Origin: Epibacterium sp. Ofav1-8
Lineage (GTDB): Bacteria > Pseudomonadota > Alphaproteobacteria > Rhodobacterales > Rhodobacteraceae
Assembly: GCF_022348185.1 (NCBI RefSeq)
Contig: NZ_JAKRFD010000007.1
Span: forward strand, 1 to 64,000
DNA: 64,000 bases
Reading direction: 5' to 3'
Shown in pieces: positions 1,536 to 16,845 of the stretch (the first letter of the stretch is position 1; each line of letters begins with the position of its first letter). The notes beneath the pieces were generated by a model that was given only the letters and a program-made list of their open reading frames with translations, was not told the DNA's origin and did not search any database. The position numbers were made by a program, and so were the translations under genes.

Positions 1536-2996
1536 ATGAGCGCGAGAACTGTCATCAAGGGCGGCACCATCGTGACCGCCGACCGCAGCTATGACGCGGA
1601 TGTGGCCATTGAAGGCGGCAAGATCGTCGAGATTGGCCAGAACCTGAGCGGCGGCAAAGTGCTGGATGCTGAGGGGTGTTATGTGATGCCGGGCGGAATT
1701 GATCCGCATGTGCATCTGGAGATGCCCTTTATGGGCACCCATTCGGCGGATGATTTTGAATCCGGCACCCGCGCGGGACTTGCAGGTGGCACCACCATGG
1801 TGGTCGATTTCTGCCTGCCCAGCCCCGGTCAATCGATGCTGGAGGCGTTGGAGGCCTGGCACGCGAAATCCAAACGCGCCTGTGCGGATTATTCCTTCCA
1901 CATGGCGGTGACATGGTGGAGTGAGCAGATCTTTGACGAGATGCAGATGGTGGTCGACCATGGCATCAACTCCTTCAAACACTTCATGGCCTATAAGGGC
2001 GCGTTGATGGTGGAGGATGACGAGTTGTTCGACAGTTTCCGCCGCTGCGCGGCCATTGGGGCCTTGCCCATGGTGCACGCAGAAAACGGTGATGTTGTCG
2101 CGACCATGCAGCAGAAACTGCTGGCAGATGGCATCACCGGCCCCGAAGGCCACGGTATGTCGCGCCCGCCCGAGGTGGAGGGCGAGGCCACCAACCGCGC
2201 CATCATGATCGCCGATATGGCGGGGGTGCCGCTCTATGTGGTGCATACCTCTTGTGAGCAGGCGCACGAGGCGATCCGTCGGGCGCGTCAAAAGGGAATG
2301 CGGGTCTATGGCGAGCCGCTTATTCAGCATCTGGTGTTGGATGAAAGCGAGTACGGCAACCCAAGCTGGGACCACGCCGCACAGCGCGTGATGTCGCCGC
2401 CGTTCCGCGACAAGGCCAATCAGCAAAGCCTCTGGGCGGGATTGCAGGCCGGGTCCTTGCAGGTGGTGGCCACGGATCACTGCGCCTTCAGCATTGAGCA
2501 GAAACGCTACGGCATCGAGGATTTCACCAAGATCCCCAATGGCACCGGGGGACTAGAGGACCGGATGCCGGTGCTGTGGACCGAGGGTGTGAACACGGGC
2601 CGTCTGACCCCGAATGAGTTTGTGGCGGCGACATCGACCAATATTGCCAAGATCCTCAACATCTACCCGCAGAAAGGCGCGGTGCTGGAAGGCGCGGATG
2701 CGGATCTGGTGGTCTGGGACCCTGAAAAGACCAAGGTGATCTCGGCTGAAACGCAGCAATCTGTTGTGGAATACAACGTCTTTGAGGGGCGCGAGGTCAA
2801 AGGCCTGCCGCGCTACACCCTCAGCCGGGGCGAGATCGCGGTGGACAATGGCACCGTCTGCGCCACGGCAGGGCATGGCAAATTCGTCACGCGCGCGCCC
2901 TATCCAGAGGTCAATAAAGCGCTGTCGAAATGGAAAGAAGTGACCGCGCCCCGCAAGGTGGTGCGTGATCCGGAAAACATGCCGGCCTGCGTCTGA
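1536..2996 (+). CDS. Dihydropyrimidinase / D-hydantoinase
   Basis: This cytosolic cyclic amidohydrolase opens dihydropyrimidine or hydantoin rings. I place the start at ATG 1536, 4 bp after the previous stop, giving 486 residues, the normal family length. The binuclear-zinc signature is complete: 'GGIDPHVHLEMPF' near residue 60 (two His), the carbamylated lysine in 'FKHFMAYKG' near 150, 'MVHAENGD' and 'VVHTSCEQA' (His ligands), and 'VATDHCAF' (catalytic Asp). Tight coupling to the upstream amidohydrolase and the downstream NCS1 permease points to reductive pyrimidine catabolism or hydantoin use. The dihydropyrimidine dehydrogenase gene is not adjacent in this window. A hairpin with a T-rich tail follows immediately. 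Confidence 0.92.
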   Translation: MSARTVIKGGTIVTADRSYDADVAIEGGKIVEIGQNLSGGKVLDAEGCYVMPGGIDPHVHLEMPFMGTHSADDFESGTRAGLAGGTTMVVDFCLPSPGQSMLEALEAWHAKSKRACADYSFHMAVTWWSEQIFDEMQMVVDHGINSFKHFMAYKGALMVEDDELFDSFRRCAAIGALPMVHAENGDVVATMQQKLLADGITGPEGHGMSRPPEVEGEATNRAIMIADMAGVPLYVVHTSCEQAHEAIRRARQKGMRVYGEPLIQHLVLDESEYGNPSWDHAAQRVMSPPFRDKANQQSLWAGLQAGSLQVVATDHCAFSIEQKRYGIEDFTKIPNGTGGLEDRMPVLWTEGVNTGRLTPNEFVAATSTNIAKILNIYPQKGAVLEGADADLVVWDPEKTKVISAETQQSVVEYNVFEGREVKGLPRYTLSRGEIAVDNGTVCATAGHGKFVTRAPYPEVNKALSKWKEVTAPRKVVRDPENMPACV

Positions 2997-2998
2997 GA

Positions 2999-3032
2999 TT
3001 TTCCCCGGTCACTGGCCGGGGAATTTTCGTTT
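2999..3032 (+). terminator. Intrinsic terminator after the hydantoinase gene
   Basis: An inverted repeat TTCCCCGG (3001-3008) and CCGGGGAA (3016-3023), with a 7-nt loop, is followed by TTTTCGTTT. It starts 4 bp after the stop codon. The permease gene lies only 55 bp further on, so this may terminate only partly and set the permease level. Confidence 0.7.
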
Positions 3033-3086
3033 GCGCCCTTTGGAGGAAAGGGCCACAAATCCGAATAAAAGGGAGGAAATTAAGAA

Positions 3087-4577
3087 ATGACCGATATAAC
3101 AAGTGGGTATACCACGTCTCGGGACAGCGAACCGGGTCAACTGGATCTCGCGGGGCTGGATCCGGAACTCTACAACGAAGACCAACTGCCGACCACCGCA
3201 GCAGAGCGCACATGGAACTGGTTGTCCATTTCTGCACTTTGGGTGGGGATGGTGGTCTGTATCCCGACCTATCTGCTGGCGTCCTATCTGATCGGCGCAG
3301 GCATGAGCTGGGATCAGGCGGTGATGACCATTCTCGCCGCCAATGCGATCGTCCTGATCCCGATGGTTCTGGTGGGCCACGCAGGCACCAAATACGGCAT
3401 CCCGTTTCCGGTGCTCTTGCGTTCGTCCTTCGGCCCGGCTGGGGCCAAGATCCCGGCGGTCGCCCGTGGCATCGTGGCCTGTGGCTGGTTTGGTATCCAG
3501 ACATGGGTTGGCGGGTCTGCGATTTTTGTGATCGTCAACAAGCTCACCGGTGGGGCGCTTGCAGGGGAGGCGTTGCCGTTCCTTGGGATCAGCCTTGGTG
3601 AATTTGTCTGCTTCCTCGCCTTCTGGGGCCTGCATCTCTACTTTATCAAGAACGGCACGGAGTCGATCCGCTGGCTGGAGACCTACGCGGCCCCGTTCCT
3701 GCTGGCGATGGGCCTTGCATTGCTGGCATGGGCCTATTCTGCGGCGGGCGGTTTTGGCGAGATGCTCTCTACCCCCAGCGCCTTTGATCCGGGTCAGCCC
3801 AAAGAGGGGCAGTTCTGGGCCGTGTTCTGGCCAAGCCTGACGGGCATGATCGGCTATTGGGCCACGCTTGCGCTCAATATTCCGGATTTCACCCGCCATG
3901 CCCGCAGCCAAAAAGATCAGTTGGTGGGTCAGATGGTGGGTCTGCCGATCCCGATGGCGTTGTTTGCTTTTATCGCGTCGGCTGTGACCTCGGCCACTGT
4001 GGTGATTTTTGGCGAGGCGATCTGGGATCCGGTGCAGCTGTCGGAGCGCATGGGCGGCTCTGCGGTGATCATTGCGCTGTTTGCGCTGATCGTGGCGACG
4101 CTGACGACAAACCTTGCGGCCAATGTGGTGGCACCCGCGCATGGGTTTGCCAACCTCGCGCCGAGCAAGATCAACCTCAAGCGCGGCGGCTATATCACCG
4201 CAGCCATCGGGATCGCCATGTTCCCATGGATTCTAGTGAACCATATCGTCGGCTGGCTGATTGCCTATTCGGCCCTTCTGGGGCCGATCGCGGGTGTGAT
4301 GCTGGCGGATTACTACCTTCTGCGCAAAACCCGGCTTGAAGTGGCTGACCTTTTTAAGGCCAACGGCATCTATTCGGGCCAGAACGGCACCAACTGGGCC
4401 GGTATTCTGGCGCTGGTGATTGGTATTCTGCCGAACCTGCCGGGCTTTCTGGCGGGCGTTGGCCTGACCGATGGGACCTCTGCGTTCTTTGCGACCATCT
4501 ACACCTACGCGTGGTTTGTGGGGCTCTTTGTGGCGGGCGCGGCCTATCTGCTGCTGTCCAAGGTGATGAACAAGTAA
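3087..4577 (+). CDS. NCS1-family nucleobase:cation symporter
   Basis: This 496-residue inner-membrane protein has about 12 hydrophobic segments starting near residue 45. It is recognisable as the cytosine/uracil/allantoin/thiamine permease family (NCS1) from the 'GIPFPVLLRSSFGPAGAKIP' region after TM2 and the following 'GWFGIQTWVGG' in TM3. It imports a nucleobase-like ring compound with a cation. Its place after the hydantoinase and before DUF1330 suggests uracil, thymine, a dihydropyrimidine or a hydantoin as substrate. ATG 3087 follows GGGAGGAAATTAAGAA. The exact substrate cannot be read from the sequence. Confidence 0.9.
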   Translation: MTDITSGYTTSRDSEPGQLDLAGLDPELYNEDQLPTTAAERTWNWLSISALWVGMVVCIPTYLLASYLIGAGMSWDQAVMTILAANAIVLIPMVLVGHAGTKYGIPFPVLLRSSFGPAGAKIPAVARGIVACGWFGIQTWVGGSAIFVIVNKLTGGALAGEALPFLGISLGEFVCFLAFWGLHLYFIKNGTESIRWLETYAAPFLLAMGLALLAWAYSAAGGFGEMLSTPSAFDPGQPKEGQFWAVFWPSLTGMIGYWATLALNIPDFTRHARSQKDQLVGQMVGLPIPMALFAFIASAVTSATVVIFGEAIWDPVQLSERMGGSAVIIALFALIVATLTTNLAANVVAPAHGFANLAPSKINLKRGGYITAAIGIAMFPWILVNHIVGWLIAYSALLGPIAGVMLADYYLLRKTRLEVADLFKANGIYSGQNGTNWAGILALVIGILPNLPGFLAGVGLTDGTSAFFATIYTYAWFVGLFVAGAAYLLLSKVMNK

Positions 4578-4585
4578 ACTCTGTC

Positions 4586-4608
4586 GCTCCGGGGGGGGTC
4601 CCCGGAGC
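4586..4608 (+). terminator. G/C-rich hairpin between the permease and DUF1330 genes
   Basis: GCTCCGGGG (4586-4594) pairs perfectly with CCCCGGAGC (4600-4608) around a 5-nt loop. There is no T tract after it, so it could be a weak terminator or an mRNA-stabilising 3' end instead of a full stop. Confidence 0.5.
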
Positions 4609-4643
4609 GCCTCCCGTCTGAGGACATAACCAAGGAGAGTTCT

Positions 4644-4931
4644 ATGCCCAAAGCCTATTGGATCGCCCATGTCACCGTGACCAACCCAGACCCTTATGCG
4701 CTTTATGCTAAGGGGGCGACTGAGGCCTTTGCCAAACACGGTGCCCGCGTTTTGGCGCGTGGCGGTGCGGTCGAACATCTGGAGGGCGAAGGCCATCCGC
4801 GCAACGTGGTGATCGAGTTTGACTCCATGGAGGCCGCGCTCGCCTGTTATAATTCGCCAGAGTATCAAGAGGCCAAGGCCCATCGCGAGGGGGCCGGGAT
4901 CGCCAATATCATGATCCTTGAGGGCAGTTGA
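4644..4931 (+). CDS. DUF1330 family protein
   Basis: This 95-residue soluble protein has the usual DUF1330 length and pattern: an N-terminal 'KAYWIAHVTVTNPDPYALYAKG', a central 'VIEFDSMEAALACYNSPEYQEAK' and a short C-terminal strand 'ANIMILEG'. The family has a dimeric alpha/beta-barrel-like (ferredoxin-type) fold without an established reaction. Its placement as the last gene of the pyrimidine/hydantoin group suggests an accessory role there, which is inference. ATG 4644 follows an AAGGAGAG ribosome-binding site, and a strong terminator ends the unit. Confidence 0.85.
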   Translation: MPKAYWIAHVTVTNPDPYALYAKGATEAFAKHGARVLARGGAVEHLEGEGHPRNVVIEFDSMEAALACYNSPEYQEAKAHREGAGIANIMILEGS

Positions 4932-4973
4932 TCCTCCCTTCCGATCTCTGCACCCGGGGCCTCGCCCAGTGAT

Positions 4974-5000
4974 AAAGCGCTCGATCAAGAGCGCTTTTTT
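4974..5000 (+). terminator. Strong intrinsic terminator
   Basis: AAAGCGCTC (4974-4982) and GAGCGCTTT (4989-4997) form a perfect 9-bp stem with a 6-nt loop, ending in six T residues. It closes the pyrimidine/hydantoin operon 43 bp after the DUF1330 stop. Confidence 0.9.
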
Positions 5001-5227
5001 CATGGCGCGCTGCCAGTTGGCGATACGCAGGCCAAAGCCGGTGATGCTCTTTCGCGGACCGGGGCGCCATCGCTTGTGACGGTGGGCCGTTATGCAACTG
5101 CGTCCAATCGGTTACAAATATGATCTTGTTTTGAGGTCGCAGGCAGCAAATGATGCTCGATTAACGGCACGAGAAGGAATTCCTGCCATCAAGATCGGGT
5201 ACGAGTCTAAGAGGAGTCCCCAATGAG

Positions 5228-7732
5228 ATGGAGACGCTGACGGTGCTCCGGAGGCTTCACCCCCTCGTTCAGGCGTTGGGCAACCGAACCTATCTGCCCA
5301 CCTGGATCGCGCTTTTGGTCGTGGTCCTCTCCTTTGTGTTTGCCGAAAACCAAAACCGTATCATCCACGAACAGCGCATTCGTGCGGATGTGCAAAGCGA
5401 GGCCGGTCTGATCCGATCCCGGCTCGAAGGGTATCTGAACGCGGACATCCAGCTGGTCAAAGGGCTGGTGGCGGTGATCGCCTCGGAGCCTGACATCACG
5501 CAGGAACGCTTCAGTGCGCTGGCGGCGGAGACGATCGGGACCAAGTCAGAAATCCTCAATATCGCGGTCGCTCCGGACCTCGTGGTGACGATGGTGCATC
5601 CGCTGGAAGCGAACCGGGCGGTGATCGGGTTGGACTATAACCGCAACGCGGCGCAGCGTGCGGTGGCGTTGCAGGTGCGGGACAGCGGCGATGTTGTGCT
5701 GGCGGGGCCGGTGGACCTTGTCCAGGGCGGCACCGGCTTTATCGTGCGGTTCCCGATTTTCACCGGAGAGGGCGCAGACCGGCGCTTTTGGGGGCTGGTG
5801 TCTGCGGTGATCGACGCCAACATGCTTTATGCCGCGACGGGCGTGTCTGATCCCAACGGAAATCTGGACATCACCCTGCGCGGGCGGGACGGCACCGGAG
5901 AGGCTGGCGCCGTGTTTTTTGGCGACTTGGGCGACAAAGATACCCGCGCGCAGGATCCGGTCTCCATGACGATTGTCCTGCCAACCGGCGAATGGCGGTT
6001 GGATGCCGTGCCGCGTGGAGGCTGGCCAACGGCACCCGACAATCTCTGGACCCTGCGTCTGATCCTGGTGATCGCCGGCATCCTGATCCTGGTGCCGACG
6101 TTCCTGGCCTGTCGCCTGTCGGCGGTGCGGCGCGGCGCGATCAAGATCCTGCGCAAGCGTGAGCGTGAACTGGAACTGAAGCAGGCGGAACTCGAACAGC
6201 TCTCGGCGGTTGCCCAGAATGCCTCCGACAGCATCGTCCTGACCGATCCGCAGGCGCGGATCATCTGGGTGAACGACGCCTTCTGCAAGATGACCGGCTT
6301 TACCGTTGACGAGGCCATCGGCTGCACGCCGGGCGAATTGCTGAATGGGCCCGAGACCGACCCGGAGACAATCCGGGCCATTGCTGCGCATTTGCAAAAA
6401 GGCGAACGATATCGGACCGAGATCCTGAACTACACCAAGTCGGGCGAGACCATCTGGGTCGAGACACATCTGGTCCCCGTGCAGGACGATCAGGGCAACG
6501 TCAGCATGGTCATCGGCATCGAGCGCGATGTCACCCAGTCCAAGCGCCACGCGGCAGAGCTGGCGGATGCGAAACTGGCCGCCGAGCAGGCCGACCGGGC
6601 CAAGTCGGAGTTCCTCGCCAACATGAGCCACGAAATCCGCACGCCGATGAATGGGATCATCGGCATGGCGGACCTGCTGTCGGACTCGGAGCTGCCGGAA
6701 GAAGAAGAGCAATACGTCGAGATCATTCGAACTTCGTCCAGGGCCTTGTTGAAAATCATCAATGATATCCTCGATTTATCCCGGCTTGAGGAGGGCAAGC
6801 TCAAGCTTGCGGAGGTCGATTTCGATCTCGAAACCTGTATCGAGAATGCGGTGGATGTGCTGCGTCCTGCCGCGCAGGACAAGGGGTTGACCCTGAACAT
6901 CGACTATGCGCCGGACCTGCCGAAATCGGTGCGCACGGATGACGGGCGGCTGCGGCAGGTTCTGGTGAACCTGGTCGGAAACGCGGTCAAGTTCACGTCC
7001 TCGGGCCGGGTGGATGTGCGGGTGATGGCCGCGCCGGGCGATCCCTACCGGCTGACGATCGATGTCGAAGACACCGGCATCGGCCTGTCTGATCTGCAGC
7101 TGAAGAACATTTTCGAGAGATTTTCCCAGGCCGACGCGGCGACAACGCGCGCCTTTGGCGGTACGGGACTGGGGCTGACGATTTCGCGACATCTGGCCGA
7201 CCAGATGGGCGGCGATATTACCGTCCGGTCGCGACTGGGCCGGGGCAGTTGTTTTTCGTTGCACATTCAATGCGCCCCACCGGCTGGCGCTCTGGAACAG
7301 GCCGAGGTGGCGTTGATGCCGGATCTGGATCTGTTGCGCGGGCGCAAGGTGCTGCTGGCAGAAGACAATCGCACCAATCGCCTGTTGATCCGCAAATATC
7401 TGTCGGATCTGTCGATCGACCTGATCGAGGCGGAGAATGGACGCCAGGCGGTCGAGCTGTGCCAGCTCCATCAGCCCGACGTGGTTCTGATGGATATGTC
7501 GATGCCGGAAATGGACGGGATCACCGCTACACGGGCCATTCGGGGCCTCGCGATGGCTCAACCGCCGATCGTCGCGCTCACGGCCAACGCCTTTGCCAGC
7601 GACAAGGAAGCCTGTCTGGCTGCCGGTATGAATTGCTTCCTGTCGAAACCGATCAACAAGAAGCAGCTGTTGCAAAGCATGGCCGCCGTGATTGTCGAGC
7701 CTGGCGCCCTGAGCCACGTGGCATCTGCCTGA
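5228..7732 (+). CDS. Hybrid sensor histidine kinase (CHASE-PAS-HisKA-HATPase-REC)
   Basis: This 834-residue inner-membrane signalling protein has TM1 at about 22-39 and a periplasmic CHASE-type sensor domain at 45-230 that includes a conserved 'SRLEGYLNADIQLVKGLV' segment. TM2 is at about 273-297. A PAS domain follows at 325-435, then the HisKA helix with phospho-accepting His468 in 'SHEIRTPMNG', an ATPase domain (N box 'NLVGNAVKFT', G boxes 'DTGIGL' and 'GTGLGL'), and a receiver at about 705-820 with Asp756 in 'LMDMSMPEMDG'. There is no Hpt domain and no response-regulator gene next to it, so its output partner is unknown. ATG 5228 follows GAGGAG at 5211. A nearby ATG at 5223 runs straight into a stop and is not used. 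Confidence 0.92.
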   Translation: METLTVLRRLHPLVQALGNRTYLPTWIALLVVVLSFVFAENQNRIIHEQRIRADVQSEAGLIRSRLEGYLNADIQLVKGLVAVIASEPDITQERFSALAAETIGTKSEILNIAVAPDLVVTMVHPLEANRAVIGLDYNRNAAQRAVALQVRDSGDVVLAGPVDLVQGGTGFIVRFPIFTGEGADRRFWGLVSAVIDANMLYAATGVSDPNGNLDITLRGRDGTGEAGAVFFGDLGDKDTRAQDPVSMTIVLPTGEWRLDAVPRGGWPTAPDNLWTLRLILVIAGILILVPTFLACRLSAVRRGAIKILRKRERELELKQAELEQLSAVAQNASDSIVLTDPQARIIWVNDAFCKMTGFTVDEAIGCTPGELLNGPETDPETIRAIAAHLQKGERYRTEILNYTKSGETIWVETHLVPVQDDQGNVSMVIGIERDVTQSKRHAAELADAKLAAEQADRAKSEFLANMSHEIRTPMNGIIGMADLLSDSELPEEEEQYVEIIRTSSRALLKIINDILDLSRLEEGKLKLAEVDFDLETCIENAVDVLRPAAQDKGLTLNIDYAPDLPKSVRTDDGRLRQVLVNLVGNAVKFTSSGRVDVRVMAAPGDPYRLTIDVEDTGIGLSDLQLKNIFERFSQADAATTRAFGGTGLGLTISRHLADQMGGDITVRSRLGRGSCFSLHIQCAPPAGALEQAEVALMPDLDLLRGRKVLLAEDNRTNRLLIRKYLSDLSIDLIEAENGRQAVELCQLHQPDVVLMDMSMPEMDGITATRAIRGLAMAQPPIVALTANAFASDKEACLAAGMNCFLSKPINKKQLLQSMAAVIVEPGALSHVASA

Positions 7733-7805
7733 ACCATAGACATCTGCAGCTGCGCGGTGACATGCCGTCGCATCGGGATGCGATCCTGGGGGCTTCTGAA
7801 CCGAA

Positions 7806-7838
7806 TGCGGCACGGCGGGCAACTCCCGCCATGCCGCA
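7806..7838. terminator. Long hairpin between convergent genes
   Basis: TGCGGCACGGCGGG (7806-7819) pairs with CCCGCCATGCCGCA (7825-7838) with one mismatch and a 5-nt loop. It sits between the 3' ends of the kinase gene and hmuV, which face each other, so a bidirectional terminator is plausible. No T tract flanks it on either side. Confidence 0.55.
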
Positions 7839-7918
7839 CAGAACGCCGAAGGCCTGCGAGAGGGGCGGGCCGCGACCGTGTGCAGGATGCCCGATAGGGC
7901 GTCCGGGCGCGCCACAGA

Positions 7919-8701
7919 TCAGGCGCGCGCGGATTGCGGGAGAACAAAGACGCCCGCATCGGGTGGCACGATGCCGGTGCGCAACGGGCATCCGTAGACC
8001 TCTGACAGACGCGCATCGGTAAGAACCTCTGCGACTGGCCCGGCGCCGGCGGACCGCCCCTGCGACATGACATGGATGTGATCGGCATACATGGCCGTCA
8101 GGTTGAGATCATGCATGACGGCGACCACGCCGCCGCCTGCAGAGGCGAAGCCGCGGGCCAGCTCCATCACCGTCAGCTGATGCGCGATATCCAGGCTGGA
8201 GACCGGTTCATCCAGAAACAGCCAGCAGGGCGCCCCATCGCGCATGGGCCGCCAGACCTGCGCGAGCACCCGCGCCAGCTGCACCCGTTGTTGTTCGCCG
8301 CCGGACAGTTCCTGATAGAAACGCCCGGCATAGCCATCTAGATCCACCCGGCTCAGGGCGTCAAAGGGCACATCCTGTGCGTTTGCATCCGGGCCGGCGG
8401 ACAGGCCAAGCCGCACCACCTCCAGCACGGTGAACGGAAAGGCAAGGACGGTCGCCTGGGGCAGAACCCCGCGAATGCTGGCGATTTCCCACGGACGATA
8501 GTCCTCTATCCGGCGCCCGTTCAGGGTGATGTCGCCGGAATAGGGCAATTCGCCGACCATCGCCTTGAGCAGCGTGGACTTGCCCGATCCGTTCGGGCCG
8601 ACAATTGCCGAGAATGTGCCGGGGCGGGCATTGAAACAGACATCCTTCAGGATCTGTTTCTTGCCGATGGTGAGGTCGATGTGATCTGCGCGCAGGGTCA
8701 T
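7919..8701 (-). CDS. hmuV: Heme ABC transporter ATP-binding protein
   Basis: This 260-residue ABC ATPase energises heme import across the inner membrane. Walker A 'VGPNGSGKST', signature 'LSGGEQQRVQLAR', Walker B 'CWLFLDEPVSSLD' and the switch His in 'VMHDLNLTA' are all present. The frame stays open far upstream, but ATG 8701 gives the family length and overlaps the hmuU stop by 4 bp. It is the last gene of the leftward hmuSTUV operon. HmuV is preferred over siderophore or cobalamin ATPases because a hemin-degrading protein is encoded in the same operon. Confidence 0.92.
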   Translation of the reverse strand: MTLRADHIDLTIGKKQILKDVCFNARPGTFSAIVGPNGSGKSTLLKAMVGELPYSGDITLNGRRIEDYRPWEIASIRGVLPQATVLAFPFTVLEVVRLGLSAGPDANAQDVPFDALSRVDLDGYAGRFYQELSGGEQQRVQLARVLAQVWRPMRDGAPCWLFLDEPVSSLDIAHQLTVMELARGFASAGGGVVAVMHDLNLTAMYADHIHVMSQGRSAGAGPVAEVLTDARLSEVYGCPLRTGIVPPDAGVFVLPQSARA

Positions 8702-9786
8702 TGGTCCACAAGCCCCCGTCGTTTGAGCAGTATCCACAGGAAGACGGGCGCCCCGAGCACCGCGGTGACAATGCCGATCGGCAATTCTGCCGGTGCAATG
8801 ATGGTTCTGCTGACAAGATCCGCACCCAGCAGCAAGGTTGCCCCCAGCAACGCCGCATTCGGCAGGAGCATGCCATGATCCGGTCCGGTGGCCAGGCGCA
8901 GCACATGTGGCACCACGATGCCCACAAACCCGATGCCGCCGGTGGCGGCGACGGCGACGCCCGTTGCGGCCGCCACCGAGAAGATCGCCGCATTTTTCAT
9001 GCGCTGGACCGGTATTCCCATGTGGGCTGCTGCCGCCTCGCCGAGGGCAAGGCAGTTCAACCCATGCGCCAGCCAGGTGGAGCCGATGATGGCCAAGAGG
9101 ATAACCGGCCCGGCAATCAGTGATTTTTCCCAGGTGGCCCCGGCCAGCGACCCCATCTGCCAGAAGGTCAGGTCCCGCAGTTGCTGATCGTCGGCCATGT
9201 AGACCAGGATGCCCGAGACCGCGCCCGAGAGTGCACCAAGCGCGATGCCCGCCAGCAGCATTGTTGCCACAGAGGTGCGCCCGCCGCGCGTGGAGACGCG
9301 ATAGAGGATCAAGGTGCTTCCCCAGCCGCCGATAAAGGCCGCGATCGGGGTCACGTAATGGCCGAACAGGCTCTGCACCCCCAGGGGCAGCAGGCTGCCC
9401 AGGACGATCGACACAATCGCGCCAAGCCCTGCGCCGGCGCCGACCCCGACCAGTCCGGGATCGGCAAGCGGGTTCCGGAACAAGCCCTGCATGACCGCGC
9501 CGGACACAGCCAGCGCCGCCCCGACCAGGATGCACAGGACGACGCGTGGCATTCGAATATCCCACAGCACGACCCGTTCCATTGTCGTCAATTCCGCGCC
9601 GGTGAGGAGTTTGCCAACCGCGCCCCAGAGGGACGTGCCCGACGCGCCGAAGGCGAGGTTTACGACGGTTGCCAGCCCCAGCAGCACCAGGAGAACCACA
9701 CTCAGTTGCCGGGCAAGGATGCGGCGGTCGAATTCCCGCGCCCGCGGTGGGGGGCTGTGGGTGTCTGTATTGTCATAGGTCACCAT
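8698..9786 (-). CDS. hmuU: Heme ABC transporter permease (FecCD/BtuC family)
   Basis: This 362-residue polytopic inner-membrane protein of the FecCD family has about ten membrane helices and a short polar N-terminus. Typical motifs are 'WDIRMPRVVLCILVGAALAVSGAVMQGLFRNPLADPGLVG' (given here as the family's first conserved block) and the C-terminal 'GIGFVGIVVPHVLR' coupling region. It forms the channel of the HmuTUV importer. Its stop overlaps the hmuV ATG, and its start lies only 3 bp after the hmuT stop, so all three subunits are translationally linked. Confidence 0.93.
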   Translation of the reverse strand: MVTYDNTDTHSPPPRAREFDRRILARQLSVVLLVLLGLATVVNLAFGASGTSLWGAVGKLLTGAELTTMERVVLWDIRMPRVVLCILVGAALAVSGAVMQGLFRNPLADPGLVGVGAGAGLGAIVSIVLGSLLPLGVQSLFGHYVTPIAAFIGGWGSTLILYRVSTRGGRTSVATMLLAGIALGALSGAVSGILVYMADDQQLRDLTFWQMGSLAGATWEKSLIAGPVILLAIIGSTWLAHGLNCLALGEAAAAHMGIPVQRMKNAAIFSVAAATGVAVAATGGIGFVGIVVPHVLRLATGPDHGMLLPNAALLGATLLLGADLVSRTIIAPAELPIGIVTAVLGAPVFLWILLKRRGLVDQ

Positions 9787-9789
9787 GGG

Positions 9790-10641
9790 TCAAAGCGGCC
9801 CGTAGAGAGAGGTTGCCAACTCCAGTGCGGCATCCGCAGTGCGCGGGCCGAAGCCCAACAGATACAGACCGTTCATCCGTACAACCGATCCGGAGGCAGC
9901 CGCCGGCGTGGGCTTGATGGACGGGAGCGCAAGCAGTTCCGCATTCGGGGCGCCGTGATCGCCGCCGCGATCCATCATCAGGATCACGTCGGGCGCGGCT
10001 CGCGAGACCGCTTCGTCGGTCATCAGCTTGTACCCCTCGAACCCGGTCAGCGCATTGACACCGCCTGCCATGCCGATGATGCCATCCGCAGCGGTATTGG
10101 TGCCGGAGGCCATGATCCGTCCGCCACGCGTCGACAACACGAAGAGTACGCGCTTGCGGTCGGCGTCCGGGATGGAGGCCACTTTCTCTGCAACCGCATC
10201 AAGATCATCGCGCAGCTTTGTGGCGAGGGCCTCGGCTTCGGCGGTTTTTCCCGTCGCCGCGCCGATTGTCGTGATCTTGTCCAGGATCCCCTGGGGGGTA
10301 TAGCTGTCCGGGACCTCGACAAGCTCGACCTCCGCCTCTTTGAGCACCTCCAGGGTTTCGGCCGGGCCGGCCCCGGCTTCGGAGATGATCAGGTCGGGAT
10401 TGACCGACAGCACGCCCTCCGGTGCCAGCGCCCGCATGTACCCGACATCGGGCAGGGTGGTTGCGGCCTCGGGATAGACGGATGTCGTGTCGCGCGCGAT
10501 CAGCCTGTCTTCTGCGCCGAGCGCATAGATGATCTCGGTCACCGAGCCGCCGATCGCCAGCACGCGATCTGCGGCGTGGAGGGTCAGGGGCGTCGTAAAC
10601 AGGGCCAGGCTGAGGGCGATGGTGTGCAAGGGAAGACGCAT
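9790..10641 (-). CDS. hmuT: Periplasmic heme-binding protein
   Basis: The 283-residue type III solute-binding protein has a clear signal peptide (residues 1-24, ending 'LTLHAA') and then 'DRVLAIGGSVTEIIYALG', the usual first strand and helix of HmuT/BtuF-like proteins. The conserved 'DLIISEAGAGP' loop follows. It hands heme from the outer-membrane receptor to HmuUV. ATG 10641 shares its first base with the hmuS stop (TGATG). A GTG one codon upstream is in frame but less likely. Confidence 0.9.
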   Translation of the reverse strand: MRLPLHTIALSLALFTTPLTLHAADRVLAIGGSVTEIIYALGAEDRLIARDTTSVYPEAATTLPDVGYMRALAPEGVLSVNPDLIISEAGAGPAETLEVLKEAEVELVEVPDSYTPQGILDKITTIGAATGKTAEAEALATKLRDDLDAVAEKVASIPDADRKRVLFVLSTRGGRIMASGTNTAADGIIGMAGGVNALTGFEGYKLMTDEAVSRAAPDVILMMDRGGDHGAPNAELLALPSIKPTPAAASGSVVRMNGLYLLGFGPRTADAALELATSLYGPL

Positions 10642-11696
10642 CACAGTGTTTCCTTTTCTTTTGCGCGGGGGAGGGCGGCCACGAGGGTGTCCCAGGCGGG
10701 GCGGCTGTCCAGGTCTTCGGTTTTGCGGCCAAAGATCTGCAGGATGAGGCCACCGTCCGCATCAAATGCTTCGACCGAGGTCGCGGGGCCGCGCTGGGTC
10801 GGTTTGGTTGCGGCATAGACTTCGGCGATGTGATCCAGTCGCAGATGCAGGTTGAAGCGCGGATCCATCACATTCTGCCACGGTCCCATGGCCTTCAGCC
10901 TGTCGATGGGGCCGCCGTGGATCTGGATGCAGCCACGGTTGCCGACAAAGAGCATCACCTCCGTGCCGCTGCCAGCCAGAGCTTGCAGCGCAGCATCAAC
11001 AGCGCCGACGTCCAGAGCCGCGACGAAAGGCGCGCCGACGTGGCGGTAGGCGCCGAGTCGGTTCATCTTCAGTTTCGAAGTCAGGCGCAGGAACTGGTGG
11101 GTGTCGGTCATCTTCGCCCATTCGCTGCGCAAAAGCGCGATCTTATCGAGATTGACCCTGGGCGCTTCGGCCGGTTTGCGCGGGCTCACGTCGCGCGTGT
11201 CCGACTGATCTCCGGTTGCGAGTTGCGCCACCACGTCGGACCAGGCGGCGTGATTGGATGTGTCACGCAGGTGGATCTTGTGAACGGCGTCCCCGGCTGC
11301 ATCAAAGATCTGGATCGAGCGTTTGACGCCGCTTTCGGTCTCCGTTTCCACCGCAAATGCGCTCACCCAATGGGAGGGAAACAGACGCAGATCAATTTCG
11401 GGCTGCAGAATCATCGCCGCATGCGGCCCGCTTTTGTAGTTGCCATAGGTGCCGATGCGCTCATGCACGCAGGAGGCGTTGCGGGTGAGCGCCATCACTT
11501 CACCCAGATGCGCGATCTGCGGCATCAACGCGTCCGGATGGGCCGAGACAGCTGTCACCCCCTGGCCGACAAAAGCCGCCAGAAGTTGAGCTTCGGCAAT
11601 ATCATGAGAGTCGCAAAAATCGCGTGCGCGCAGGCTGTTGTGCGCCGCGCGCAAGGCGCGGATGTCGTCTGCGGAAGACGGGGGAGCGTGGGCCAT
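10641..11696 (-). CDS. hmuS: Hemin-degrading factor, HemS/HmuS family
   Basis: A 351-residue cytosolic protein made of two structurally repeated halves, as in HemS/ChuS/HmuS. The halves show similar segments around 'RIGTYGNYKSG' with 'VSAFAVETETESG', and 'RHVGAPFVAALD' with 'VGNRGCIQIHGGPI'. It binds and degrades or traffics heme delivered by HmuTUV. I chose ATG 11696 because GAGGA lies 8-9 bp upstream; the open frame extends further without support. It is the first gene of the leftward operon, divergent from the receptor gene. Confidence 0.9.
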   Translation of the reverse strand: MAHAPPSSADDIRALRAAHNSLRARDFCDSHDIAEAQLLAAFVGQGVTAVSAHPDALMPQIAHLGEVMALTRNASCVHERIGTYGNYKSGPHAAMILQPEIDLRLFPSHWVSAFAVETETESGVKRSIQIFDAAGDAVHKIHLRDTSNHAAWSDVVAQLATGDQSDTRDVSPRKPAEAPRVNLDKIALLRSEWAKMTDTHQFLRLTSKLKMNRLGAYRHVGAPFVAALDVGAVDAALQALAGSGTEVMLFVGNRGCIQIHGGPIDRLKAMGPWQNVMDPRFNLHLRLDHIAEVYAATKPTQRGPATSVEAFDADGGLILQIFGRKTEDLDSRPAWDTLVAALPRAKEKETL

Positions 11697-11948
11697 CAAG
11701 GGTCCTCGTATTGAAGTGTTGGGATTGCTTGCTGGCACGCGCCGCCGTTCGGGCGCTGGGCTGACATTTCGGCTGCGCATATATTTACACAGCGCGATAT
11801 TTCTTGACAGAATTAATAAATTATTTTAGGCGCGGCAAGTGTGAACACCCGGTGACGCCAACCTCGCCGGAAAAACAGAACGCAAGACACCAAGCCAGCC
11901 CCAAGGCGAGCATGCGGTATTCCTCTGCATCAGATCTATGGGGACGAC
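11697..11948. promoter_or_regulatory. Divergent hmuS / hmuR control region
   Basis: This 252-bp gap separates two divergent heme-uptake units and contains a strikingly AT-rich block (about 11780-11830) in an otherwise GC-rich region. A consensus -35 TTGACA is at 11804-11809 on the plus strand, within TTCT-TGAC-AGAA, a small inverted repeat. I could not find a convincing -10 at 17 bp or match a named iron operator with certainty. Iron-responsive control by Irr, RirA, Fur or IscR is likely from gene content. Confidence 0.5.
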
Positions 11949-13949
11949 ATGAAAATCCATACAATGCGCCGGGCACTTCTGTGCTCCGTCTCGGGCATGG
12001 CATTGGCCATGACCGCAACTGGCAGCACCGCTCAGGAGCTGACCGAGGGCGAGGGGTTCCTCGGCTATCTGGTCATCGGCAACAACAAGCGCGACGTTCA
12101 GACCGACACCGCCACACCCAAAACCGTTCTCAACGCCGAAGAAATCCAGGACCGGCAGGCCGGCAGCGTGTCGGAACTGATCGATTCCGTGCCCGGCGTC
12201 ACGCTGGTCAATGCGGGAACGCCGACGGGGGCAGGCATCAATATCCGCGGCTATGGTGCGGACGGGACCTATGGCTCCAACCAGAAAGTGCAGATCCAGC
12301 TTGATGGTGCCACGATGGGGTCGGAGGAACTCTATCGGATCGGGACGCAGCTCTATACCGACCCGGCGCTGTTCCGCGAAGTTTCCGTGATCCGCGGCAC
12401 GGTGGGGTCGTATGAGTATGGTTCCGGCGTCATCGGTGGGGTGGTGAACCTGGAAACCATTGACGCCGCCGACCTGACCGATGGTGAAATCGGCCTCTCC
12501 GGGCGGCAGACCTTAGAATATTACGGCAACGCAGATACGCGGGTCAGCTCCACCATCCTCGGCTGGCAGCCGACCGAGAATCTGGAGTTCCTGCTGAACT
12601 ACACCTATCGCGAGCAGGGCAACTACACCGACGGCGATGGCAACGAGGTGGCCAATACCGGCTACGAATTGCCGTCTTATCTGGTGAAAGGGAAATACAG
12701 TTTCGGGAACAATGCGGACCAGTCGCTGACCTTTTCGCATTCGCAGACGACCTCGGACGAGAAGGACGTGCCCTACGACGCCTTTGCGGGGACGACCACG
12801 TTTGGCAATGTGGATCGCTACACAGAGACCACGACAACCAGCCTGCAATATGCCTTCAATCCAATTGGGAATGACCTGATCGATTTGACGGCGACCCTGT
12901 CCTATGCCGATCAGTATATCGAGCAGGATATGGTCAGCGGCTCGCCCTTCGCCGCGGCACTGTTGAATGCCGATCACCGCTATGAAACCACCAAGCTGAC
13001 GGTCAAGAATAGCTCTTATTTCGATGCATTCGGCGTGTCTCACAACCTGCGCGCGGGGGGCGAGATCATCCACAAGGACCGTCTTGACGCCTCATCCGCG
13101 CCGGGGGGCACCGACAAGCGGTTTGCATTGTTTGCCATCGACGAGATCGATTTCGGCAATGGTCTGACCCTGACACCGGCGATGCGCTACGAGACGCAGA
13201 ACATCGAAGCAAGCGCCGATGGAACCTATGTCACTGCGGGCGAGAGCTTTGACAACAGCGAGCTGATGGGCGGGATTTCCGCACGCTATGCGTTTGAAAG
13301 CGGTTTCGCGGTCTTCGGGTCCGTGGCCTATACCGCAGGGCTGCCCATTCTCGATGACTTCGATTACGCAACCTATCCGACCTACATGACCCAGAGTGAG
13401 AAGGCGGTGACCTACGAGCTTGGGGCGTCCTATGACAAGGTCGGTCTGTTCAGCAGCGATGATCAACTCAAGGCAAAGGTGAACTTCTGGCAGACGCGGC
13501 TTTGGGATTATACCTCCGGGACCGAATACGCCACCGTCGACCGTGTGAATACCGAAGGCGTCGAGGTGGAGGCATCCTACAGCCACGAGTCGGGCGCCTA
13601 TGTGGATATGAACGCCAACATGTCCAGCGGTGAATGGGTCTATGTGGGCGGAACCACTGCCGATTACACCCGGATGCCGGCAAACAGCCTTGGTCTCACC
13701 GTCGGCAAGAAGTTCAACGACACCCTCGATGTGTCCTGGGAGGCGGTGCTGACCAAGGACATCCGCAGCACCCCCGGCTATGCGGTCCACAACCTGCGCG
13801 CCACCTATGACATCGACACCGGTTTCCTGAAGGAAGCGCAGGTGCGCATCGGCGTCGAGAATATTCTCGACAAGCAGTACACGCCGCATCTGGCAACCCG
13901 CGCGGCGGCCGGGCGCAACATCAAACTCTCGTTGGCAGCAGCATTCTGA
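11949..13949 (+). CDS. TonB-dependent outer-membrane heme receptor
   Basis: The 666-residue protein has a signal peptide cut near residue 28 ('GSTAQE'). A plug domain at about 55-170 carries 'DRQAGSVSELIDSVPGVTL' and 'INIRGYGADG'. A beta-barrel rich in aromatic/polar alternation ends in Phe ('LSLAAAF'), as outer-membrane barrels do. Genomic context identifies heme as the likely ligand: hmuSTUV is divergent, and exbB, exbD and tonB follow. I do not see the FRAP and NPNL motifs that mark classical HemR/HmuR receptors, so it may be a divergent heme receptor or take a hemophore or another iron complex. A second ATG sits at codon 6. Confidence 0.88.
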   Translation: MKIHTMRRALLCSVSGMALAMTATGSTAQELTEGEGFLGYLVIGNNKRDVQTDTATPKTVLNAEEIQDRQAGSVSELIDSVPGVTLVNAGTPTGAGINIRGYGADGTYGSNQKVQIQLDGATMGSEELYRIGTQLYTDPALFREVSVIRGTVGSYEYGSGVIGGVVNLETIDAADLTDGEIGLSGRQTLEYYGNADTRVSSTILGWQPTENLEFLLNYTYREQGNYTDGDGNEVANTGYELPSYLVKGKYSFGNNADQSLTFSHSQTTSDEKDVPYDAFAGTTTFGNVDRYTETTTTSLQYAFNPIGNDLIDLTATLSYADQYIEQDMVSGSPFAAALLNADHRYETTKLTVKNSSYFDAFGVSHNLRAGGEIIHKDRLDASSAPGGTDKRFALFAIDEIDFGNGLTLTPAMRYETQNIEASADGTYVTAGESFDNSELMGGISARYAFESGFAVFGSVAYTAGLPILDDFDYATYPTYMTQSEKAVTYELGASYDKVGLFSSDDQLKAKVNFWQTRLWDYTSGTEYATVDRVNTEGVEVEASYSHESGAYVDMNANMSSGEWVYVGGTTADYTRMPANSLGLTVGKKFNDTLDVSWEAVLTKDIRSTPGYAVHNLRATYDIDTGFLKEAQVRIGVENILDKQYTPHLATRAAAGRNIKLSLAAAF

Positions 13950-13968: not shown

Positions 13969-14415
13969 ATGAGATACCGGAGCCAGGTTCATACCCTTGC
14001 CCTCGTGGCGGCTGCCCTTTCTTTCCTCGGGGGGGCAACCGTTGCACGGGCTGAGGACACCCCGCCACACTCGGGCGTTCAGATCGAACTCAACGCGCTT
14101 CAGGATCAGGGCGGTGCGTGTCGCCTGTCGTTTCTGGCGACGAATGCCCGAAACACCGACATCGAAGAGGCGGTCTATGAGATCGTTCTCTTCGACCGGT
14201 CCGGTGGGGTGATGATGCTCACCCTGTTTGATTTTCGAGACCTGCCTGCGGGACGTCCCCGGGTCCGGCAGTTCGATCTGCCCGAGACCGCCTGCGCGGA
14301 TGTCGGGCGGGTGCTGTTGAATGGTGCAAGCCGCTGCCAAAGCGCGGGCGAGAGCACGATTTGCGAAGAGGCGCTGAGCCTCAGCAGCCGCACGGATGTG
14401 GAGCTTCTGGGATGA
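13969..14415 (+). CDS. Small secreted four-cysteine protein of the heme locus
   Basis: The 148-residue product has an N-terminal signal peptide (about 1-28, ending 'VARAED') and a mature part with four cysteines ('GACRLSF', 'ETACADV', 'ASRCQS', 'TICEE') that could form two disulfides in the periplasm. I do not recognise a named domain. It begins 19 bp after the receptor stop with a good GAAGGAG site, and its stop overlaps the exbB start (ATGA). It is therefore embedded in the receptor-exbB-exbD-tonB operon, and a role in heme transfer or in the Ton complex is plausible but unproven. Confidence 0.8.
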   Translation: MRYRSQVHTLALVAAALSFLGGATVARAEDTPPHSGVQIELNALQDQGGACRLSFLATNARNTDIEEAVYEIVLFDRSGGVMMLTLFDFRDLPAGRPRVRQFDLPETACADVGRVLLNGASRCQSAGESTICEEALSLSSRTDVELLG

Positions 14416-15095
14416 TGGATCTAACTCAAATCTGGTCCGGCGTGCTGATCTCGGTTGCTGAAATCGTCGAGGTCGGCGGCCCGGTGGTGGTTTTGCTGCT
14501 GGTTCTGTCCGTGGTCAGCGCCGCAACCGTGCTCTACAAGATGTGGCAGTTTCGCCGGGCCGGAGTGGGGCGGCATCGCCGGGTAAAACTGGCGCTCGCG
14601 GCCTTCGAACGCGGCGATGCGCGCGCGGCAGAGGCAATCCTGGCGGAGTCCAGGAGCTATCTGGTGGCCCCGGTGCGGCGCGCGCTGCACGGCGCAAAGG
14701 CGCCGGGGACCGGTGCCGTTTCGGATCGCTGCGATGCTGAGGCCGAGGCGCTGTTTCTGCGTCTTGAAACCGGTCTGGGGTTCCTTGATCTGGTGGCGCA
14801 GCTAGCGCCGCTGATCGGTTTGTTCGGCACCGTGCTCGGCATGATCGAGGCGTTTCAGGGGTTGCAGTCGGCGGGGACTTCGGTTGATCCGACCGTGCTT
14901 GCGGGCGGCATCTGGGTGGCGCTGCTGACCACGGCGGCGGGTCTTGCCGTTGCCATGCCGGTGGCTGCGGTGCATGGCTGGTTGAGCGGCGCGGTCGAGC
15001 GCGACCGGGTCTTTGCAAATATGGCGCTGCGCCAGGCCTTCGCCCCCGACGGCACTGCGGTGGCGGCGGTTGCGCCGCAAGAGGCAGCAGCCTGA
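14412..15095 (+). CDS. exbB: ExbB-type proton channel protein (MotA/TolQ/ExbB family)
   Basis: The 227-residue inner-membrane protein has three membrane segments: near 20-40 ('VVVLLLVLSVVSAATVLYK'), near 130-150 and near 170-195. It contains the conserved 'LAPLIGLFGTVLGMIEAF' block and 'GGIWVALLTTAAGLAVAMPV', which form the channel helices of ExbB/TolQ. It assembles with ExbD to power TonB. The start at 14412 overlaps the previous stop; ATG 14415 is an equally possible start. Its gene neighbours make it dedicated to heme uptake. Confidence 0.92.
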   Translation: MMDLTQIWSGVLISVAEIVEVGGPVVVLLLVLSVVSAATVLYKMWQFRRAGVGRHRRVKLALAAFERGDARAAEAILAESRSYLVAPVRRALHGAKAPGTGAVSDRCDAEAEALFLRLETGLGFLDLVAQLAPLIGLFGTVLGMIEAFQGLQSAGTSVDPTVLAGGIWVALLTTAAGLAVAMPVAAVHGWLSGAVERDRVFANMALRQAFAPDGTAVAAVAPQEAAA

Positions 15096-15496
15096 TGGGG
15101 CTGCGCCTGAATAAACGGCAGGCCAGGCGCCTGTCGATGACGTCTCTGATCGACGTGATCTTTCTGCTGTTGCTGTTTTTCATGCTGTCGTCGACCTTTT
15201 CCCGCTTTGGCGCGGTGGAGCTGATGGCAGCCGGGCAAGGGTCGGGAGACAGCGCGACTTCCCGTCCGGTGTTTCTCCGGCTGGCGGCGAACCATCTGTT
15301 GCTCAATGGCGAGACGGTTGCGCTTGAGGGCCTTGCGGACCGTTTGCAGCTGTTGACGGCGGATCTGGCGGAGGCGGATGCGCAGGGGACACAGGTGCTT
15401 GTCAGCCTGACCGCCGAGGTCAGTTCTCAACGTCTGGTCGATGTGCTTGCGGTGCTGCGTCGTCAGCCCGGCCTCGCCGTTGCTGTATTGGGGTAG
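15095..15496 (+). CDS. exbD: ExbD biopolymer transport protein (Asp-containing copy)
   Basis: This 133-residue protein has one N-terminal membrane helix (about 17-38) and a periplasmic domain. The helix holds Asp20 in 'SLIDVIFLLLLFFM', equivalent to the essential proton-carrying Asp of E. coli ExbD. The first base of its ATG is the last of the exbB TGA stop (TGATG). It is the proton-active subunit candidate of this Ton system and is followed 3 bp later by a second exbD-like gene. Confidence 0.92.
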   Translation: MGLRLNKRQARRLSMTSLIDVIFLLLLFFMLSSTFSRFGAVELMAAGQGSGDSATSRPVFLRLAANHLLLNGETVALEGLADRLQLLTADLAEADAQGTQVLVSLTAEVSSQRLVDVLAVLRRQPGLAVAVLG

Positions 15497-15499
15497 GGG

Positions 15500-15895
15500 A
15501 TGCTGTCGCGCACTCGCAAAAGCAAAAGCCAACGAGAGCCCACGATCGCGCTGATCAACGTGGTCTTCCTGATGCTGGTCTTTTTTATGGTTGCAGGGTC
15601 GCTGGCGCCGGCACTGGACCCGGCGGTGCGCCTGGTCAAGGCGGCGGATCTGGACGCCAGCCCGCCCCCGGATGCATTGGTGATCCGGGCCGATGGCACC
15701 TTGCGTTTTCGCGGCGCGGAACTGACCTCGCCAGAGGCCTATGTGCGGATCGTGCGCGAAGAAGATGCCGCGTTCACCGCGCGGCTGGTGCCGGATCGCG
15801 CGCTGCCTGCCACCCGGTTGATCGCGGTTGCCAAGACGCTGCGCCAGCTTGGTGCGGCGCGGATCCTCCTGCTGTCGGAGCGCAACCTGTCATGA
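15500..15895 (+). CDS. Second ExbD-like protein with Asn in place of the membrane Asp
   Basis: The 131-residue protein has the ExbD/TolR architecture: a short basic N-terminus, one membrane helix (about 16-36) and a periplasmic domain. The helix reads 'ALINVVFLMLVFFM', so residue 20 is Asn where its neighbour has Asp. The codon is AAC at 15557-15559. In characterised ExbD the Asp is essential for energy transduction, so this copy should not carry protons by itself and may form a mixed dimer with the first ExbD. It overlaps tonB by 4 bp. Confidence 0.88.
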   Translation: MLSRTRKSKSQREPTIALINVVFLMLVFFMVAGSLAPALDPAVRLVKAADLDASPPPDALVIRADGTLRFRGAELTSPEAYVRIVREEDAAFTARLVPDRALPATRLIAVAKTLRQLGAARILLLSERNLS

Positions 15896-16845
15896 TACCG
15901 CGATCCCCTGTCATCGCCGGTCTTTCGGTCGTTGTCGCTCTTGCCGCGCATGCTGCCTTGCTGGTGGAGACCGACGAGGGGCGCGTTGAAATCGCGGGCG
16001 GTGGCAGCACCGCCCCGGCGGCCCTGGGCAACAGTTTTGCGGATCTTGCGCAGGGGCGTGCCAGCGCCGTTGAGGCAGAGACGACCACCGAGGCGACAGA
16101 GCCTGCCGAGGCCCTGCCGCCGGTCGACGCTGCCGAGGTGCACCCGGCAGAGCAGCCGACGGATGCAACGGCAGCCCCGGCGGTTTCGGCGTCAATCCCG
16201 CCGGTGCAGCCGGATGCAAGCGCGGCTGACGGCCTGACGCCGATCACGGAGACCGTGCCGGTTGTGGATGCGGCGGTAACACCGGCCGCCACCGCGACGC
16301 CGCAAGCCTCCGTTGCACCGGTTGCACAAGCGGTGGCCCCGGTGACCAATGCCAGGGTCGCTCCGATTGCATCGCCCTCCGAGTTGGCCCCTGACAGCAG
16401 CCTTCGGCCCGCGGCCCGCCCGGTGCGTCAGGCCAAGCGGCAGCCGGTGGCAAAGCCCGCACCCGCGGCGCCACGTGGCAACAGTAACCGCAACGCGCAG
16501 GCAGGATCGTCAAGCGGTGCGGAAGGTCAAACCGCGCCGCAGGCCGCCAGTGCCCGCGCGGCGCGGGACGCAGGCGAGGGGAATGCCGCAGCCTCCAACT
16601 ATCCGGGCGAGGTGATGCGACAGATCACCCGCCTGCCCAAGCCGCGAAGCTCCGCCAGGGGCGTGGCGCATGTGGCATTTGTGATCGGGGCCGGGGGGCA
16701 GGTGACCTCGGTGCGCATCGCCCGGAGTTCGGGCTCGCCCGCACTTGATCAGTTGGCGGTGCGGCAGATCCGGCGCGCGGCCCCGTTTCCACCGCCGCCA
16801 GCCGGTGCGCGGCGCCAGTTCACCATCGGCATCAAGGGATCCTGA
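15892..16845 (+). CDS. tonB: TonB family energy transducer
   Basis: The 317-residue protein has an N-terminal membrane anchor (about 7-24), a long Ala/Pro/Thr-rich periplasmic linker (about 50-215) and a C-terminal TonB domain. The C-terminal domain starts at 'YPGEVMRQITRLPKPR' and continues with 'GVAHVAFVIGAGGQV', 'SSGSPALDQLAVRQIRRAAPFPPPP' and a last strand 'FTIGI'. It transmits energy from ExbB/ExbD to the outer-membrane receptor. It starts within the stop of the second exbD (ATGA) and is the last gene of this rightward operon. Confidence 0.9.
   Translation: MIPRSPVIAGLSVVVALAAHAALLVETDEGRVEIAGGGSTAPAALGNSFADLAQGRASAVEAETTTEATEPAEALPPVDAAEVHPAEQPTDATAAPAVSASIPPVQPDASAADGLTPITETVPVVDAAVTPAATATPQASVAPVAQAVAPVTNARVAPIASPSELAPDSSLRPAARPVRQAKRQPVAKPAPAAPRGNSNRNAQAGSSSGAEGQTAPQAASARAARDAGEGNAAASNYPGEVMRQITRLPKPRSSARGVAHVAFVIGAGGQVTSVRIARSSGSPALDQLAVRQIRRAAPFPPPPAGARRQFTIGIKGS

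Follow-up and report, generated by a model that had tools for sequence, protein, structure and literature searches.

Two exbD genes that lie side by side in a Rhodobacteraceae genome encode Asp and Asn, respectively, at the same position of the membrane helix. Comparison of sequences across Pseudomonadota, which is the scope of the whole survey, indicates that this arrangement is an old, strongly kept and ordered gene pair adjoining one exbB. We refer to it below as a D/N pair, naming the residue of the first copy and then that of the second. The window analyzed here is a 64,000-nucleotide stretch of Epibacterium sp. Ofav1-8 (RefSeq assembly GCF_022348185.1, contig NZ_JAKRFD010000007.1, positions 1 to 64,000). 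Judged by its gene content, the locus in the window is one of heme uptake, in which the exbD pair belongs to a heme operon and is flanked by exbB and tonB (Table 1). The plus-strand run consists of the receptor, small protein, exbB, exbD1, exbD2 and tonB genes, and is divergent from the hmuS-, hmuT-, hmuU- and hmuV-like genes. Genes in this run are tightly packed: exbB and exbD1 overlap by 1 nt, exbD2 and tonB overlap by 4 nt, and a gap of 3 nt separates exbD1 from exbD2. The nearest named relatives of exbD2 are found in Tritonibacter species (81-82% identity).

Table 1. Coordinates of the Ton and heme-uptake genes in the window.
Feature	Position	Strand	Remarks
hmuV-like ATPase	7919..8695	-	PF00005
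hmuU-like permease	8698..9786	-	PF01032, 302 bits
hmuT-like periplasmic binding protein	9790..10644	-	PF01497
hmuS-like heme-handling protein, divergent operon	10641..11780	-	PF05171, 294 bits
hmuR-like TonB-dependent heme receptor	11949..13949	+	Pfam Plug and barrel; TIGR01785 at 246 bits, below the cut-off of 317
Small protein, no assigned family, directly 5' of exbB	13969..14415	+	Relatives in 95/100 cassettes (window and best 99)
exbB	14412..15095	+	PF01618, 91.8 bits; sole ExbB of the operon
exbD1, Asp copy	15095..15496	+	133 aa, ...TSLIDVIFLLLLFF...; PF02472, 59.1 bits
exbD2, Asn copy	15500..15895	+	131 aa, ...IALINVVFLMLVFF...; PF02472, 31.8 bits
Asn20 codon of exbD2	15557..15559	+	AAC; replaces the Asp of known ExbD
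tonB	15892..16845	+	PF13103/PF03544; NCBIfam TIGR01352

The first-pass annotation had placed an Asp copy and an Asn copy side by side at residue 20, which was confirmed by direct reading of both genes, with D20 of ExbD1 encoded by GAC at 15152-15154. Both proteins exceed the cut-off of the Pfam ExbD family (PF02472; 25.4 bits). When ExbD1 and ExbD2 are compared by BLAST, their membrane helices align with D opposite N, and the same N20 lines up with the Asp of ExbD in the solved structures 6tyi and 7ajq. The mid-helix Asp is a trait of the canonical Ton motor; it is present in ExbD1 and absent from ExbD2, which carries Asn instead.

A family search with exbD2 covered 394 genomes and returned matches in 230, from which the window and the 99 best-scoring places were taken as a set of 100 cassettes. 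Copy 1 has Asp and copy 2 has Asn in every one of these cassettes, all of which share the gene order exbB-exbD1-exbD2, and the entire order of small protein-exbB-exbD1-exbD2-tonB is found in 91. D/N pairs also occupy all 80 loci read in named genomes, where 11 pairs are identical to ones already counted and 69 are left. Searches at the level of the class (385 genomes) and the phylum (349 genomes), with a profile made from eight Asn copies, added 53 new loci (L143-L195), one of them the window, and a further 40 stretches from the hit lists were included in the pooled set. The script total of 258 pairs was reduced to 243 distinct tandem pairs by removing 14 exact duplicates and one locus at a contig edge (L300), whose second copy is Asn; another D/N pair (L209) and the loci of the control search described below are outside the 243. 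The pooled set contains 240 D/N pairs, two D/D pairs (L140, from the window's genome, and L183) and one D/S pair (L211). Since reading was confined to the top-scoring portion of each hit list, pairs other than D/N may in truth make up a larger share. The family set and the named genomes, both centred on Rhodobacteraceae, supply about 70% of the pairs (169/243), which are therefore not independent. Excluding those from named genomes, the pairs span 35 family-level groups, and a D/N pair occurs in 34, including four outside the class. The first-pass annotation had reasoned that a second copy keeping Asp in most relatives would mark the Asn as a chance mutation; the second copy is Asn in all of the related cassettes, and the counts from the cassettes, the named genomes and the pooled pairs agree that the Asn is not a chance mutation.

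Since a profile of the Asn type favours Asn in the class and phylum searches, the phylum search was rerun with an Asp-only profile on the same 349 genomes. This control yielded 30 loci, of which 25 have a single ExbD within 1.5 kb flanks and five have a tandem pair. The single copies carry Asp without exception (25/25), and the tandem pairs comprise four D/N and one D/D. Every Asn copy among the loci read had an Asp partner, apart from that at L300, whose partner is lost at the contig edge. The two D/D pairs and the D/S pair, with one of the D/D pairs in the window's own genome, indicate that Asn is not strictly needed.

The first-pass annotation also described a dedicated heme Ton system. That description holds for the operon in the window, given its gene content and the co-transcribed operon reported for Ruegeria sp. 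TM1040 (PMC5225302), but does not extend to D/N pairs at large, which are not confined to heme loci. Of the 100 cassettes, 65 have an hmuS- or hmuR-like gene within the stretch read and 35 have none there. The window's own genome has nine ExbD matches, which correspond to TolR and four tandem pairs, three of them D/N and one D/D. The idea that Asn is a heme-specific trait was rejected on these grounds, together with the spread of D/N pairs over 34 groups.

Several observations bear on selection at the pair. The Asn codon is AAC in 167 of the D/N pairs and AAT in 73, so that the codon varies and the residue stays constant. Second copies have a mean pairwise identity of approximately 40%, and Asn is nonetheless present in 98.8% of them (243 pairs). 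In an alignment of 57 second copies, which does not include the three exceptions, N20 and F28 are the sole invariant columns. Five close comparisons gave dN/dS values of 0.14-0.17 for exbD2 and 0.18-0.25 for exbD1, which are rough because dS is 0.8-1.5.

We examined the history of the pair with a tree of 190 proteins, built from 88 pairs of the 243 together with 14 single ExbD. A branch supported at 96/91 has most second copies (82/88) on one side, and the remaining six, from two families, on the Asp side adjoining it. With the Asp/Asn column masked, in a quicker tree search, 82 of the 88 second copies were grouped at 95, and a poorly supported branch (51) had all 88 on the same side. The second copies of D/D and D/S pairs lie inside the Asn group of the 190-protein tree and thus look like later changes from Asn. 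The D/D tandem pair of the source genome (L140; contig 4, 84000-96000) is among them, and its second copy seems to have reverted naturally from Asn to Asp. The simplest history would be one old duplication, followed by a change of the second copy to Asn, which it then kept. The six second copies on the Asp side mean that a single origin is not firmly established, and they leave room for a separate second origin of those six.

We also analyzed the proteins encoded next to the pair. An alignment of the window ExbB to 7ajq showed that both pore Thr residues (T148 and T181 equivalents) are kept, and wherever the ExbB of a cassette could be read both are present, bar a single gap at the T148 position. 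Where E. coli ExbB has Glu176, the window has Val; across the 100 family cassettes, Val occurs in 97 and Glu in three. Among the 240 D/N pairs, this position is V in 184, E in 39, T in four, L in four, Q in three, A in two, I in two and G in one, with one pair lacking an ExbB. ExbB/TolQ proteins that adjoin a single ExbD have E or K there, and the ExbB of L209, which goes with a D/N pair, has V. We considered a change at the Glu176 position as a partner or marker of D/N pairs and rejected it, since the position varies among the D/N pairs themselves.

The small protein encoded upstream of exbB has no family match in Pfam or NCBIfam. Four Cys residues are invariant in all 44 of its aligned relatives, and its N-terminal sequence, judged by eye, suggests that it is probably secreted. 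Its structure is predicted with confidence to be a beta sandwich (pLDDT 87.7), and its PDB matches are weak (IrmA 5ek5, E 1.5e-3). The small protein may be a fifth part of the window's Ton system.

A close counterpart of the operon is the hmuR operon of Ruegeria sp. TM1040, which, by its description, has six co-transcribed genes of the same kinds as in the window: a receptor, a hypothetical protein, exbB, exbD1, a duplicate of exbD1, and tonB (Hogle et al., 2017; PMC5225302). These genes are up 41-201-fold in low iron, and growth on heme falls strongly when hmuR is disrupted, although polar effects downstream are possible (PMC5225302). The hypothetical protein, presumably a homologue of the small protein in the window, is among the three most expressed genes of the TM1040 cluster (PMC5225302). 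In the operon description against which we made the comparison, the second exbD appears merely as a duplicate of exbD1, and Asn is not mentioned (PMC5225302).

Two other systems resemble the window in layout. The tonB-exbB-exbD1-exbD2 cluster of Xanthomonas campestris (PMC3551730), compared by gene layout, also has tandem exbD genes adjoining one exbB, although its tonB is at the other end and its exbD2 is dispensable for iron uptake. The AglR-AglQ-AglS motor of Myxococcus (PMC9389320) likewise combines a single MotA/ExbB-like protein with two ExbD-like proteins that differ from each other. Unlike the proteins in the window, AglQ and AglS are both predicted to have the conserved Asp, and their motor serves gliding rather than uptake (PMC9389320); the Asp in both ExbD-like proteins that typifies this system is replaced by Asn in the second copy of the window. 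The review leaves open whether AglQ and AglS form hetero- or homodimers (PMC9389320). Tandem exbD genes are thus already in print for TM1040, Xanthomonas and Myxococcus (AglQ/AglS). Literature searches of open-licence PMC papers gave no report of an Asp/Asn ExbD pair, and one may exist elsewhere.

The ExbB-ExbD(-TonB) motor of E. coli and Serratia (6tyi, 7ajq; PMC12215075) shares with the window the two pore Thr residues, the ExbD fold and an adjoining tonB. It differs in having two identical helices that each contain an essential Asp, where the second gene of the window encodes Asn. The D25N variant of ExbD is inactive in E. coli (PMC11658791), which makes accidental keeping of Asn unlikely. 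In Campylobacter, MotB D22N mimics the protonated state of the Asp (PMC9389320). Published rotary models of this class of motor are described as involving alternation between two Asp residues, with 36 degrees of rotation per proton (PMC12215075); a D/N pair is therefore a natural test of such models.

We infer that one ExbB pentamer holds one Asp helix and one Asn helix in a built-in asymmetric axle, a reading that we consider somewhat better than even. The argument for such a heterodimer is indirect: the gene order is tight and constant, one exbB is present, the loci read include no Asn copy that stands alone, and the helix is better conserved than the remainder of the protein. The two axle subunits would then be different proteins in a 5:1:1 stoichiometry, with each pentamer enclosing one helix of each ExbD, and the proton-carrying Asp of ExbD1 and the Asn of ExbD2 would occupy the same place. 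The Asn would act as a permanently neutral substitute for a protonated Asp. Because a D/N axle cannot alternate, we propose that ExbD1 exchanges protons and ExbD2 is locked neutral, so that proton uptake and release would be carried out by ExbD1 alone. A turn would then take approximately five proton events rather than ten, with larger steps; alternatively, the axle might rock without completing a full turn. The two unlike periplasmic domains could also fix the orientation of a single TonB.

Coupling between the two proteins was analyzed in the 240 D/N pairs against 20 neighbour-swapped controls. Inter-protein coupling exceeded the control maximum at rank 5 (1.36 vs 1.23) and rank 20 (1.17 vs 0.90), but the rank-1 value was below the null maximum (1.59 vs 1.79). 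In-register helix pairs scored higher than those far off-register (p about 2e-5, with dependence uncorrected), but pairs at an offset of -6 scored higher still. With the top rank under the null maximum and offset -6 above the in-register pairs, co-evolution supports a heterodimer weakly and was rejected as proof of one.

The main rival, which we regard as possible but considerably less likely, is that the two proteins form separate homodimers: ExbD1-ExbD1 motors would do the work, and ExbD2-ExbD2 in the same ExbB would be proton-inert and tune activity as a regulator, whether as a brake, a TonB reserve or an assembly aid. It would fit with the inactivity of E. coli D25N (PMC11658791), with the two identical ExbD in solved ExbB-ExbD structures (PMC12215075), and with Xanthomonas exbD2, which is dispensable for iron uptake and required for pectate-lyase activity (PMC3551730). 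A decoy, however, needs no fixed Asn, yet the only exceptions among the 243 pairs are Asp (two) and Ser (one). The constant gene order and tight spacing favour co-assembly, and the inter-protein coupling, albeit weak, is present.

An improbable alternative is that ExbD2 stays outside the pore as a periplasmic adaptor that binds peptidoglycan or TonB, with its helix serving merely as an anchor. The predicted structure of ExbD2 (mean pLDDT 83.3) has a helix at 15-34 and a periplasmic domain of the ExbD type, and its seven best PDB matches are all ExbD or TolR, the closest being ExbD with TonB peptides bound (8vgc, E 3.2e-4; 8p9r). All 57 second copies compared with PF02472 match it at E 0.01 or better. 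The retained ExbD fold of the periplasmic domain in this model would suit an adaptor, as would the absence of any BLAST alignment between ExbD1 and ExbD2 beyond the helix region. Against this, the helix contains eight of the ten columns that are best conserved among second copies, the Asn included, and a plain anchor would hardly retain a polar Asn in its middle. A chance mutation or decaying duplicate, for which a single G-to-A change from Asp to Asn would suffice, has a negligible probability given 240 D/N among 243 distinct pairs, their presence in 34 family-level groups and the low dN/dS.

If the heterodimeric reading holds, motors with a D/N pair may run on an uneven axle, which present models do not anticipate. 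We see about an even chance that these pairs represent a large and ancient class of Ton motor in Alphaproteobacteria and some other Pseudomonadota, with a fixed heterodimeric axle and a single proton-binding Asp per motor. If so, the scheme of two alternating Asp residues and 36 degrees per proton would not be universal for 5:2 motors, and one helix could stay permanently locked neutral. An Asp/Asn motor kept by selection in dozens of family-level groups would either break the rule or mean that half of the proton sites suffice. As the two axle subunits are genetically separable, each helix can be mutated or labelled alone, which is hard in a homodimer. For TM1040, a roseobacter whose operon is composed in this way, a heme-growth phenotype and a method for knockouts are available (PMC5225302), and the D/D pair at L140 offers a ready-made comparison partner for D/N pairs.

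Further D/N pairs with unusual features were observed in the course of the survey. A further D/N pair in the window's genome (L142, contig 1) has the divergent helix motifs SLADVMF and AIVNVVL, and the ExbB adjoining it has Thr at the Glu176 position. The second copies at L204, L205, L304 and L315 have an altered helix, LINIVLLLVLAFM, with Leu where most have Phe, and retain the Asn. One locus (L206, genome G703, 2608-7867) contains two D/N pairs in opposite orientation, with their Asn codons approximately 5.3 kb apart. A plasmid search with L158 gave 10 matches, all weak, and a plasmid search with P0002 matched 27 records from ten genera, among which Phaeobacter was the most frequent.
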